Below are positions 1,057 to 7,581 of a DNA stretch of 64,000 nucleotides, in pieces (the first letter of the stretch is position 1; each line of letters begins with the position of its first letter). The translations under genes were made by a program, and so were the position numbers. This DNA is from Pseudomonadota bacterium. Its GTDB lineage: Bacteria > Desulfobacterota > Binatia > Binatales > Binataceae. The notes beneath the pieces are model-generated. The model did not search any database, was not told the DNA's origin, and saw only the letters and a program-made list of their open reading frames with translations. The stretch covers positions 62,001 to 126,000 of the forward strand of contig JAJPHI010000020.1 of assembly GCA_021325355.1 (NCBI GenBank). The letters are read 5' to 3'.

Positions 1057-3303
<2,247 letters not shown>

Positions 3304-3390: not shown

Positions 3391-4158
3391 CTAATGCTTG
3401 CCGTAAGCGAGCGCGGTGCCCTTGCGCTGCGCAAGGATATACGCTTCGAGCGCGCGCATTTTCGGGTCATCGGAAGAAAGCGTATGGCCCTTGACCGGAT
3501 TCTCGATGCACCAGTCGATCATGTCGCGCAGGAGAGCGACGCGCTGAAGCTGCACCTGGTACTTGGGATAGGTCTCGGGATGGGTGTTGGCGGCATTGGG
3601 ATGGCACATGTCGCAACTTACGCCGATCGTGCTGCCGAGTAGCGACGCGCTGTGGAAGACCTTGTTGCCGTAGTCGACGAAGGCGTCCGTCTCCGCCTGC
3701 CAAATCATGTAGTCGCGGCTGTGGAAACTCGCGTAAGTGTCACCCTGCTGGGTCTTGAGCTGAGCGCCGCCGGTCGCCGCGCCCGTTCCACCCGTCTCAT
3801 GAGTGGGGCCGGCTGAGGGGGCGCCGGCTGGCGCGGCGGTCGTGGTCTCCGCCTGGGCCATCACCCAATGCTGATCGGGATGTTTGCGCTGCCATTCGTC
3901 CATCAGCTTGCCCGTGACCGCCAGCGCCTGCGCATGGGTCATCTGCTCGCCGGGCTTGAGCCCCTTGACCTCGGTCGCGGTCACGCCGTCGCAGAGTTGC
4001 ACGACGACGCCGCCGTCCCGGGCGGGCGGCGTCTGATGGGTCGGCAGTGCCTGCGCGTACGCGTTATGCGCGCGATTGCCATGGCTCTGATAAATCGCCG
4101 TCGCGCCGGCAACGGCGCCGAACAGTGCCGCGGCGACCAAGCTGAGTCGAGGCTTCAT
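3391..4158 (-). CDS. exported mono-haem cytochrome c
   Basis: 255 residues. The N-terminus MKPRLSLVAAALFGAVAGA is a Sec signal peptide or membrane anchor. A single haem c site, CDMCH, lies near residue 180, and there is an Ala/Gly/Thr-rich linker around residues 105-140. The tail DPKMRALEAYILAQRKG resembles the ends of SoxA-like and other periplasmic cytochromes. The ATG at 4158 was chosen because a strong GGGAGGGAGA ribosome site precedes it and the signal peptide starts there; a longer in-frame reading would overlap the next gene. It sits between a Tat-exported phosphoesterase and katG. A role as electron donor to the di-haem peroxidase encoded upstream is an inference. Confidence 0.85.
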   Translation of the reverse strand: MKPRLSLVAAALFGAVAGATAIYQSHGNRAHNAYAQALPTHQTPPARDGGVVVQLCDGVTATEVKGLKPGEQMTHAQALAVTGKLMDEWQRKHPDQHWVMAQAETTTAAPAGAPSAGPTHETGGTGAATGGAQLKTQQGDTYASFHSRDYMIWQAETDAFVDYGNKVFHSASLLGSTIGVSCDMCHPNAANTHPETYPKYQVQLQRVALLRDMIDWCIENPVKGHTLSSDDPKMRALEAYILAQRKGTALAYGKH

Positions 4159-4214: not shown

Positions 4215-5375
4215 CTAGAAGCTCGCAAACTGCGGCGCTGGCGGAACGTCGACCTTGCCCCCGGATACGAGGTAGTCCGCTTTGACGGTCACCGGGTTGC
4301 GGTCCCACAGATTGTAGACCGTATCGACCAGCGCATCGTCCCGCACGGCGAAGCTGCCGTCGCCGCAGCCGTCGAACTGATCGAACGGATCGGCCCGGTT
4401 CATCTGCACCGTCAACTTCGGCAGTCCTTCCGGTGCGTAGGGCCACGGCCACGCCGTCGACAGCATCCCGTAAAAGCTGATGTTGCCGATCTGGTTGAAC
4501 AGCATCTGATGGGTGTGGCCGTGGATTACGGTGACCTTGTTGAAGGGCTTGAGGAGCGCCTGAACTTCATCGGCGTCCTCGGTCCAGAAGTTCCACGGAC
4601 GGTAGTACTTGTAGAGCGGCGAATGCGAGAAGACGACCAGCGGCGTCGCGGGCTTGAGCCTCGCCAGATCGTTCTTCAGCCATGCACGCTGCTTCTCACC
4701 GACCTCGAAGCGCGACTGGGTGGCATTGTCGAGGCCGGCCACTGTCGCCATCCTTTGCGCCGGCGTCATTCTGCGCGCGGTCCAGAAATCCTTTTCATAG
4801 ACGCTCTGGAGCACCACGACGTGGACCCCTTTCCAGTCAAAGGAATAGGTGGGCGGTCCGAACATCTCCTGCCATTTTTCGCCGAGGTCGAGATACCAGT
4901 CGTGCTCGCCGACCATCATCTTTACCGGCGCTTTGAGGGCACTGAGTATCTGCCGGCCGAGCTCGAGCTGCGAAGGTTCGCCGAGCTGCGCCAGGTCGCC
5001 GCCGTAGAGGACGAAATCGGGTTGCGGATCGAGGGCGTTGACGTCATCCACCGCCTTGACGATCGCGCGCACGAAACGCTGGTTGAGCGTGCGTTCGTAA
5101 AGATGGGCGTCCGAGATATAGGCGAAGCGGAACGGCGTCGTCCCCTGCGCGCCCTGCGTCGCGAAGCCTTGGCCGATCGCCGGAGTGCCCGCGGCGTCGG
5201 CGATCTCGACGAGCTGGAAGGTATGCGGAGGCATCAGCCCCCGGGCCATCACCGCGCCCATCGCGGCGGCGCTTACCTTCAGAAACGTTCGCCGGTCGCA
5301 GTTGCGCAGCGCCCTAAGTAGGCGGTCGCGATCTTCGTAATATCTGGTTTCGACGCTCTTGTGCCGAGGTGCCAT
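4215..5375 (-). CDS. Tat-exported metallophosphoesterase
   Basis: 386 residues of the calcineurin-like phosphoesterase fold. A twin-arginine signal is visible as DRRTFLKVSAAAMG near residues 27-40, so the folded protein should be exported. The metal motifs are in order: SDAHLY, GGDLAQLG, GEHDWYL, FSHSPLY and HGHTH. The third motif is normally GNH(D/E); here the Asn, a usual metal ligand, is replaced by Glu, which may alter the metal site. The gene lies 30 nt behind the di-haem peroxidase gene and 56 nt before the cytochrome c gene, so all three products should meet in the periplasm. The substrate is unknown. Confidence 0.88.
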   Translation of the reverse strand: MAPRHKSVETRYYEDRDRLLRALRNCDRRTFLKVSAAAMGAVMARGLMPPHTFQLVEIADAAGTPAIGQGFATQGAQGTTPFRFAYISDAHLYERTLNQRFVRAIVKAVDDVNALDPQPDFVLYGGDLAQLGEPSQLELGRQILSALKAPVKMMVGEHDWYLDLGEKWQEMFGPPTYSFDWKGVHVVVLQSVYEKDFWTARRMTPAQRMATVAGLDNATQSRFEVGEKQRAWLKNDLARLKPATPLVVFSHSPLYKYYRPWNFWTEDADEVQALLKPFNKVTVIHGHTHQMLFNQIGNISFYGMLSTAWPWPYAPEGLPKLTVQMNRADPFDQFDGCGDGSFAVRDDALVDTVYNLWDRNPVTVKADYLVSGGKVDVPPAPQFASF

Positions 5376-5405: not shown

Positions 5406-6728
5406 CTAATCGCCGCCGAGCGACGCCGGATTCTGCCGCATCGCGCTCTGTCCCGGTCCGATATCACCGAACGGACCGCTGAAACCCGGTCCCTTGCTGC
5501 CCTTGAGCCCCATCGCGGCCGCGGTGTCGCGCTGCGGACGCGTCGTGCGCGAGATTTTGAACTGCCGCGCGTACTCGGCTTTGGCCTCGGCCATGTAGGG
5601 TTGACTGGTCAGCGAGAGCAGAAACGCCGCCAGGTCGTCCTCCTGCTGCGAGCTCAGCCCGAGCGGCACGATTCCGCCGTCGAGATAGGGATTCTGCACG
5701 CCGCCCTTGTTGTAATGGTCGAGGGTATCCCAGATCGTCGCCTGCGATCCGTCATGGAAATAGGGCTCGGTCAGGAAAAGGTTGCGCAGCGACATGGTCC
5801 TGAAGGCGCCGATATCGTGCGGCTGCTTGGTCACCAGAAAGCGCCCGAGCTCACTCAGGTCGCTCGCGATGGCCATCTGATCGATCTGGCTGGGCCCCCC
5901 GGCCTGCGCCAGCATCGCGAGCGCCTGGCGCGCATGCGGCACAAAGGCTGCGTTATGGGCCGAGACGCCGATATTGTGAAAGCGATCGTCGGTGAACAGC
6001 GGGCGCGTGGGATTCCAGCCGTGGCACGACATGCAGCGACCCTGGCCGTTGAAGATGGCCCAGCCGCGCTGCTGCTGCGCCGTCAGCGCGTTGCCATCGC
6101 CGGCCATGAAGCGGTCGAACGGCGAGTCGAAGGCGAGCTGCGTGCGCTCGTAGGCGGCGATCGCCTTGACCAGGTTGTCGTAGTTGGGGGCGCTGCCAAA
6201 GACCGCGTTGAACTGCTGCCGATACTCACCGATCGCATCCAGTTTCCGGACCACGGTCTGCGGATCCGGCATCCCCATTTCGATTGGATTCAGGATCGGG
6301 TCGCGCGCCTGATCCTCGAGCGTCGGCCGGCGCCCGTCCCAGAACTGCTCGATATTGAACATCGCGTTGAGAATCGTCGGCGCATTGCGCTGACCGAATT
6401 TGGCGTGCACCCCCATCGCCGTCGGCAACTGATCGGTGAAGCCCTTGTTCGGATCGTGGCAATTGGCGCATGCGACGGTGTTGTCCACCGACAGGCGCGG
6501 ATCGAAAAACAGCGCCTTCCCCAGAGCGACTTTGGCGGCAGTCTGCGGATTATCCGGCGGGATTACGAACTTGTAGAGCCGCTCCGGAAACCCCGCCTGA
6601 TCGGTGCCCTTCGGCTCGGCCAGCGCGTCGGGCTTCGGCGCGGGCATCGTCGCTCTGGCCCCATAGACCCCGCCTATCGTCATCGCCGCAACGGCGAGAA
6701 TCACGCCCGCCCTCGATCTTCCAGACAT
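5406..6728 (-). CDS. di-haem cytochrome c peroxidase / MauG-family protein
   Basis: 440 residues with an N-terminal signal segment (about residues 8-26) and two haem c sites, CANCH near residue 90 and CMSCH near residue 235. Both are in the spacing of bacterial di-haem cytochrome c peroxidases (CCP/MauG superfamily). CCPs reduce periplasmic H2O2 with electrons from small c-type cytochromes; MauG relatives modify proteins. RNAPTILNAMFNIEQFWDGR matches the family core. The start has a strong GGGAGGAG ribosome site. It is the second gene of the operon, 40 nt behind the Irr-like regulator. Which of the CCP and MauG branches it belongs to cannot be settled by reading alone. Confidence 0.93.
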   Translation of the reverse strand: MSGRSRAGVILAVAAMTIGGVYGARATMPAPKPDALAEPKGTDQAGFPERLYKFVIPPDNPQTAAKVALGKALFFDPRLSVDNTVACANCHDPNKGFTDQLPTAMGVHAKFGQRNAPTILNAMFNIEQFWDGRRPTLEDQARDPILNPIEMGMPDPQTVVRKLDAIGEYRQQFNAVFGSAPNYDNLVKAIAAYERTQLAFDSPFDRFMAGDGNALTAQQQRGWAIFNGQGRCMSCHGWNPTRPLFTDDRFHNIGVSAHNAAFVPHARQALAMLAQAGGPSQIDQMAIASDLSELGRFLVTKQPHDIGAFRTMSLRNLFLTEPYFHDGSQATIWDTLDHYNKGGVQNPYLDGGIVPLGLSSQQEDDLAAFLLSLTSQPYMAEAKAEYARQFKISRTTRPQRDTAAAMGLKGSKGPGFSGPFGDIGPGQSAMRQNPASLGGD

Positions 6729-6768: not shown

Positions 6769-7185
6769 CTAACTTCGTCGGCGCGACGTCCCCCTTAGCC
6801 GCCCGCGCAGGACCACCTGATATTCCCTGACCTCGAAGCCTTCGAGCGCCTCGAGTTTCGACACCTTCAGCGAATCCCACGGGATATCGTGTATGCGCCC
6901 GGTCTCGTCATCGACGAAATGATGATGGCTGCCGACGTTGGCATCGAAGACGGTGGTGCCGTCGTCGAGCACAAACTCGCGCAGCAGCCCGTGCTCCACC
7001 ATCAGGTTCAACGTGTTGTAGACGGTCGCGCGCGAGATCATGGGAAACGTCTTTCTGACTTCGGCCGCGACCTTCTCGGCCGTGGGATGGGCCGTGGTGT
7101 TGAGCACGTACTGCGCGACCGCGACGCGCTGCGCCGACGGCTGGATGCCGTGTTCACGCAGGACCGTGTCGATATCGATCTTCAC
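6769..7185 (-). CDS. Fur-family regulator, Irr-like, cysteine-free
   Basis: 138 residues from the chosen GTG at 7185. A winged-helix domain carries SRATVYNTLNLMVEHGLL as the recognition region. The dimerisation part has GSHHHFVDDETGRIHDIP, the His-His-His pattern of Irr proteins. There is no cysteine at all, so the CxxC zinc pairs of Fur, Zur and PerR are missing. Irr in alphaproteobacteria senses haem and iron and controls haem and peroxide genes. Here the gene heads an operon for KatG and c-type haem proteins. A longer reading from 7272 would place the promoter palindrome inside the coding region, so the GTG start is preferred. PerR-like is the main alternative call. Confidence 0.85.
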   Translation of the reverse strand: MKIDIDTVLREHGIQPSAQRVAVAQYVLNTTAHPTAEKVAAEVRKTFPMISRATVYNTLNLMVEHGLLREFVLDDGTTVFDANVGSHHHFVDDETGRIHDIPWDSLKVSKLEALEGFEVREYQVVLRGRLRGTSRRRS

Positions 7186-7221
7186 ACGCGCAAGACTAAG
7201 TCTAACTTTAGACGCTGTCAA
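7185..7221 (-). promoter_or_regulatory. predicted promoter with overlapping palindromes before the Irr-like gene
   Basis: Read leftward, a perfect -35 box TTGACA (7221-7216) is followed after 17 nt by TAGTCT (7198-7193), a weak -10 box. The spacer contains the inverted repeat GTCTAA-AG-TTAGAC (7213-7200), and AGACT-T-AGTCT overlaps it toward the gene. TTTAGA/TCTAAA half-sites resemble those bound by Irr and PerR proteins. The expected start of transcription falls at or next to the GTG at 7185, so the message may be leaderless. The autoregulatory role is inferred from position and symmetry. Confidence 0.6.
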
Positions 7222-7503
7222 GATCCGGCGGACGCGATGGCAGTGCGAAAGGGCGCGTGGGTCATTTGACACAGTCCGGAGCCGGACTCAATCCAGGAAC
7301 GGCATCCTGCGGGCGCGAGGTGTCAGCGGCGCGGTCGCGACAGCGCTGACTGTTCGCACAGTTCGGCGCCGCAATTGCACCGAGAACGCGATAAGCGTGA
7401 GGGCTGCCCGCGCCGCGCGTTGCGGAGCATCCGCGCCGGCTGCGGGTTGGCGCGGTTAGCCGCAAAGGTGCTGGTCGCGGCTGACGAGATCCGCCTGATG
7501 CGA
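7222..7503. other. non-coding stretch between the peroxide operon and tRNA-Glu
   Basis: About 280 nt without a convincing gene. Short open frames on both strands show arginine-rich composition without recognisable motifs. No terminator, repeat or RNA gene was recognised here beyond the promoter to the left. Confidence 0.5.
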
Positions 7504-7581
7504 TGGCGTCCCCGACGGGATTTGAACCCGTGTTACCGACGTGAAAGGCCGGTGTCCTAGGCCGAGCTAGACGACGGGGAC
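7504..7581 (-). tRNA. tRNA-Glu (anticodon TTC)
   Basis: The reverse strand folds as a complete tRNA. The acceptor arms GTCCCCG and CGGGGAC pair, the anticodon loop CTTTCAC gives TTC, and GGTTCAAATCC forms the T loop. The terminal CCA is encoded at 7506-7504. It stands alone, upstream of the DHOD-like gene on the opposite side of the promoter gap. Confidence 0.96.

Follow-up and report, generated by a model that had tools for sequence, protein, structure and literature searches.

How a regulator gene can begin within a few nucleotides of its own -10 element, and which protein would act on such a promoter, are the questions raised by a short minus-strand segment of the window (the whole 64-kb stretch of DNA analysed here). 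An earlier note on this DNA had described a TTGACA, a 17-nt spacer holding GTCTAA-AG-TTAGAC, a TAGTCT and a GTG at 7185. All of these elements are present on the minus strand, where the promoter stretch (GATCTTGACAGCGTCTAAAGTTAGACTTAGTCTTGCGCGTGTGAAGATCG) is laid out as CTTGACA-GCGTCTAAAGTTAGACT-TAGTCT-TGCGCGT-GTG, with the 17-nt spacer at 7215-7199 (-). The reading that we consider probable, on the basis of sequence comparison, is that a PerR-type peroxide sensor represses its own, leaderless promoter here, at the head of a peroxide-defence operon perR-MauG/CCP-like peroxidase-metallophosphoesterase-cytochrome-katG. Neither the identity of the regulator (PerR-like) nor the katG/peroxidase operon had been named previously.

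Anatomy of the regulator promoter

The elements of the promoter, in the direction of transcription, are the following:

7208..7222 (-): box A, CTTGACAGCGTCTAA, weaker second candidate operator (10/14 positions), with the -35 as its left arm
7216..7221 (-): -35 hexamer TTGACA (within CTTGACA), doubling as left arm of box A
7200..7213 (-): GTCTAA-AG-TTAGAC, a perfect palindrome formed by the right half of box A and the left half of box B
7191..7205 (-): box B, TTAGACTTAGTCTTG, the main conserved candidate operator, matching the 7-1-7 consensus TTAGACTNAGTCTAA at 12/14 positions
7193..7198 (-): -10 hexamer TAGTCT, in the right part of box B
7183..7185 (-): GTG start codon, placed by its spacing from the -10 and by a box-to-start distance conserved in relatives

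Since TAGTCT agrees with TATAAT at only 3/6 positions, a generic sigma-70 scan made no call at the regulator promoter. Standard -10/+1 spacing places the predicted transcription start at about 7186, 0-1 nt before the GTG, and the folding of the first 61 nt of the regulator message is unremarkable (z -1.5).

The palindrome GTCTAA-AG-TTAGAC has a single exact match in the 3.36-Mb genome and is the sole match at up to two mismatches in the window (0.37 expected by chance), and it was not reported by the repeat finder. A genome-wide search with GTCTAANNTTAGAC returned, beyond the exact copy, only matches with 2-3 mismatches, which were fewer than those of the control pattern; therefore, no regulon can be derived from that palindrome. 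A second perfect palindrome, AGACTnAGTCT (AGACTAAGTCT, 7203-7193), which the earlier note did not mention, overlaps the first and forms part of the conserved element, box B.

Conserved boxes and the start of the message

For comparison, 80 related loci were fetched from metagenome-assembled genomes (MAGs) and strains, most of them classified under Myxococcota/Deltaproteobacteria, Planctomycetota and Acidobacteriota; MAGs predominate, and some of these taxonomic labels may be wrong. The element conserved among them is a 15-bp 7-1-7 box, TTAGACTNAGTCTAA, of which the window holds an imperfect copy, TTAGACTTAGTCTtg, whose right arm contains the -10. Upstream of the regulator gene, box B agrees with the consensus at 12 or more of 14 positions in 56/80 relatives, a score reached by only one of 6829 random 100-nt windows drawn from the same loci. 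A box was taken as assignable at 10 or more of 14 positions, which was the case in 66/80 relatives; the other 14 have a sub-threshold score, have the gene close to the end of a contig, or carry box A alone. In 61 of these 66 relatives, TTGACA (at least 5/6 positions) begins 15-17 nt ahead of the box, and the hexamer at the place of the -10 is TAGTCT in 31. Cultured strains with this promoter include Polyangium fumosum DSM 14668 and Minicystis rosea DSM 24000. The profile of 61 non-redundant promoters has two maxima, at TTGAC and at the box, flanked on both sides by background. A strict composite pattern (TTGAC, exact box, start codon) was found in none of 297 genomes drawn from the phylum, which shows that it does not arise by chance; the pattern is too strict for measuring distribution.

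The earlier proposal of an operator within the promoter, giving autoregulation, is favoured by this comparison, but its assignment to GTCTAA-AG-TTAGAC is not supported. We judge it very unlikely that this palindrome alone, lying in the middle of the spacer of an otherwise plain promoter, is the operator: its perfect 6-2-6 symmetry, its uniqueness in the genome and the G/CTCTAA half-site that five other relatives have in this position would fit such a role, but the exact form occurs in 0/60 other non-redundant relatives and the T at -5 is unconserved. In addition, its pairs hold in 0.26-0.89 of promoters versus 0.51-1.0 for box B, and the B-type box found before ahpC stands without it. Box B is centred 8.5 bp downstream of the palindrome centre and covers the -10.

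What is conserved in the spacer is a TC at -7/-6 and an A at -4 (profile of the 61 promoters). Indeed, GTCnA at -8 to -4 is matched at 3-4 of 4 positions in 42/61 non-redundant promoters, and in at most 9/61 when it is slid to other registers. Read together with the -35, this conserved spacer word makes a second 7-1-7 box (cTTGACannGTCnAa), which corresponds in the window to CTTGACANNGTCTAA at 7222-7208 (-). From these patterns, the spacer half-site fits better as right arm of box A, the -35 being the left arm, and GTCTAA-AG-TTAGAC is, on this alignment, the junction of boxes A and B. The arms of box A pair imperfectly in relatives, and the case for it is thus weaker than that for box B. Two relatives (L070 and L102) carry a box A-type box without box B: in both, the candidate operator (CTTGACAnnGTCTAA) coincides with the -35, and TAGTTT stands in the place of the -10, which looks like a shift in operator position.

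The same set of relatives bears on the start of the protein, which had been placed at 7185, on a leaderless message, in preference to 7272. An ATG or GTG follows the main box by 3-8 nt in 60/66 relatives, and the predicted transcription start falls between -1 and +4 nt of the start codon in 61/66, both in agreement with 7185. No Shine-Dalgarno-like word precedes the regulator start in any of the 66 relatives with an assignable box, as had been noted for the window itself; this test is partly trivial, given that the box occupies that space, and the fixed box-to-start distance is the stronger evidence. A -10 of the form TANNNT, some 10-12 nt upstream of the start codon, is characteristic of leaderless genes (PMC3160421); in the window, TAGTCT lies 13 to 8 nt before the GTG, and the arrangement is kept in relatives. 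Together, the conserved distance of 3-8 nt and the missing Shine-Dalgarno sequence strongly support a leaderless regulator message. Since the regulator protein tree groups mostly by phylum, this layout is not the result of one copy having spread recently.

We regard as extremely improbable a protein that begins at GTG 7272 on a leadered message, with the promoter-like sequence lying inside the gene. The frame is open from 7272 in the window, but an open in-frame ATG or GTG within 150 nt upstream exists in only 18/66 relatives, the DNA before the -35 is unconserved, and the promoter itself would have to encode the extra peptide.

A PerR-like regulator and its putative operon

Downstream of the predicted leaderless start at 7185, the minus strand carries the regulator and four further genes, and a tRNA gene lies upstream:

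7504-7581 (-): tRNA-Glu (TTC), about 320 nt upstream of the regulator; terminator not found
6769..7185 (-): Fur-family regulator, PerR-like, 138 aa, no cysteine (PF01475)
5406..6728 (-): di-haem cytochrome c peroxidase / MauG-like, with Shine-Dalgarno GGAGGA in its upstream sequence (PF03150, 198.6 bits)
4215..5375 (-): calcineurin-like metallophosphoesterase (PF00149)
3391..4158 (-): c-type cytochrome with SoxA/TsdA-like domain, predicted to start at MKPRLSL (PF21342, 35.8 bits)
1057..3291 (-): KatG catalase-peroxidase (NF011635, 1310 bits)

The regulator belongs to the Fur superfamily (PF01475, 82.2 bits against a gathering cut-off of 23.1). Its residues H33, D81, H87, H89 and D100 correspond to the PerR metal ligands H37, D85, H91, H93 and D104 in B. 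subtilis numbering, and are invariant in 66/66 relatives. In the DNA-reading helix, PerR proteins have an Asn where Fur has an Arg (position 61), and they also share a diagnostic Asp (PMC8638851). Here the Asn is N57 in ATVYNTL, which aligns to N61 of ATVYNNL and is invariant in the regulator alignment, and the Asp is D100. The best solved relative is Leptospira PerR (5nl9), followed by B. subtilis PerR (2fe3), and a PerR-type 7-1-7 inverted repeat, TTAGACTNAGTCTAA, stands both at the regulator promoter and before ahpC. The Cys4 structural zinc site is missing, with no cysteine in the window protein and none in 48/66 relatives; this site does not define PerR, because the Leptospira PerRs also lack it. 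The NCBIfam PerR models (PerRA, PerRB and two further PerR equivalogs) are lineage-specific, and the best score against them is 100.7 bits, where 250 is required. As it passes no named NCBIfam cut-off, we file the protein as PerR-like rather than naming it PerR.

An Irr-type (haem/iron) repressor in place of a peroxide sensor is in our estimation unlikely. IrrA does give the best NCBIfam score (101.7 bits), and the regulator has no Cys4 site and carries HHH at 87-89, but the scores lie under the cut-offs of the Irr-type models (IrrA, 101.7 against 150; Irr, 96.2 against 170) and that of Leptospira PerRB is nearly equal (100.7). The best solved relative, Leptospira PerR, is likewise without the zinc site, and its neighbourhood holds katG, CCP/MauG and ahpC instead of haem or iron uptake genes.

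Genes for katG and CCP/MauG are found in the window and its close kin. katG lies downstream of the regulator in seven loci, most of them from close kin of the window, plus a few from Acidobacteriota, and an AhpC/TSA peroxiredoxin is the downstream gene in 8/10 loci tested. The box also precedes the ahpC genes of many relatives, and those ahpC genes have a leader and a Shine-Dalgarno sequence. The gap between the regulator and the following gene contains a second box in many relatives, as at L067:6451-6465 and in the corresponding regions of L064, L069 and L117 (the following gene is ahpC where tested). The genomes of ten relatives contain 1-3 box matches each at up to two mismatches, and in 10/10 these include the regulator's own promoter, so that the box is close to private to this system; the extra matches include, in Minicystis and in L054's genome, the interval upstream of the following gene. 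Elsewhere in the genome of L076, a box precedes an unlinked ahpC-like gene (L156:1501-1515), which suggests a small regulon.

In the window, the mauG gene and a neighbouring DHOD-like gene carry Shine-Dalgarno sequences, and the start sites of the Fur paralogues in the same genome were too unclear for their leaders to be compared. Matches to box B with two mismatches elsewhere in this genome were considered as targets and set aside, having no persuasive context. One of them (TTAGACAAAATCTAA; L134:1501-1515, C14:192775) follows a TTGACA at a distance of five nt and precedes short ORFs that lie behind an FtsY-like gene; the ORFs have no evident link to peroxide defence, and the site may represent either a promoter arisen by chance or an additional target.

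Gaps within the apparent operon measure tens of nt, the one preceding katG being about 100 nt. A search of the window found no further copy of the box in front of mauG or katG, and the operon is thus likely to be served by one operator, at its head. It is also conceivable, although rather unlikely in our view, that the leaderless promoter is real and much of the operon message nevertheless comes from tRNA-Glu read-through or from an internal katG promoter, leaving autorepression partial. The tRNA gene is on the same strand, no terminator was found in the 320 nt that separate it from the regulator, and the gap of about 100 nt before katG could hold a promoter; against read-through, no tRNA gene lies near the regulator in 10/10 relatives scanned. 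Such read-through could add a leadered transcript into the operon.

The sequence anatomy, conservation, family hallmarks and gene neighbourhood are consistent with the following course of events for the autorepressed promoter. Metal-loaded PerR dimers would bind box B, which holds the -10, and would probably occupy box A as well, where the -35 forms the left arm; repressor and RNA polymerase could not share the promoter, and the regulator would block its own operon. Upon exposure to peroxide, the histidines of the metal site would be oxidized and PerR released. Transcription would then begin at GTG 7185 or 1 nt before it, and the message, presumably including the downstream peroxidases by co-transcription, would be translated without a Shine-Dalgarno sequence.

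Known systems and significance

The 5' end of M. tuberculosis furA coincides with the initiation codon (PMC2358910), M. smegmatis furA1-katG1 yields a leaderless mRNA from a GTG with a FurA site overlapping the promoter (PMC12713383), and the mycobacterial FurA box, TCTTGACT-N-ATTCCAGA, contains a -35-like TTGACT (PMC4218801). Mycobacterial furA-katG is thus the closest known case in terms of layout, with a Fur-family regulator upstream of katG, leaderless and autorepressed, and its box holds TTGACT as box A of the window holds the -35; we infer that this TTGACT, taken as a -35, matches the -35 mapped there. Within this known kind of arrangement, the window nevertheless stands apart: its regulator has no cysteine and belongs to another clade, from other phyla, its operator consensus differs, the main box lies on the -10, and the operon is longer, with a MauG-type peroxidase, a phosphoesterase and a cytochrome between regulator and katG.

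Leptospira PerRA and PerRB are peroxide regulators with the PerR metal ligands and the diagnostic Asn and Asp, and have no structural zinc site (PMC8638851). The window protein resembles them in all these features, and the PerRA structure 5nl9 is its best solved match, but they are clearly more distant than the relatives found here, and the window protein scores below the NCBIfam PerRA and PerRB cut-offs. We know of no leaderless katG operon for either of them.

B. subtilis PerR is autoregulated, has katA and ahpC among its targets and recognizes a 7-1-7 box, TTATAATNATTATAA. The window shares with it the 7-1-7 layout, the outer TTA/TAA and the metal ligands, but the arm middles are GAC/GTC in the window and ATA/TAT in B. 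subtilis, and the Cys4 zinc site of the B. subtilis protein is lacking. Irr of the Rhizobiales, which binds the ICE box TTTAGAANNNTTCTAAA, is a cysteine-poor Fur-family member with an HHH motif, like the window protein, and received the top NCBIfam score; the window protein differs in its sub-cut-off score, its peroxide-gene neighbours and its box spacing.

In wider terms, we tentatively raise the possibility, which we hold with less than even confidence, that a mostly cysteine-free PerR clade of Myxococcota, Planctomycetota and Acidobacteriota has been under lasting selection for a leaderless regulator message, with both promoter hexamers made from operator half-sites, and that, together with mycobacterial furA, it would make a leaderless gene with a promoter-nested operator a rule of design, either recurrent or ancestral, among peroxide sensors; the ahpC targets of the same box keep a leader and a Shine-Dalgarno sequence. 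If true, the regulator and its ahpC target would be translated by different routes under stress. The analysis defines, from sequence alone, an operator and likely targets for a PerR-like clade that falls outside the named NCBIfam models, in phyla where peroxide control has been little studied. Sequence comparison also indicates that an individual gene can maintain a leaderless start across phylum-level distances, and, because the regulator would be leaderless and its ahpC target leadered, the system offers a testable case of whether leaderless translation serves regulation under oxidative stress.
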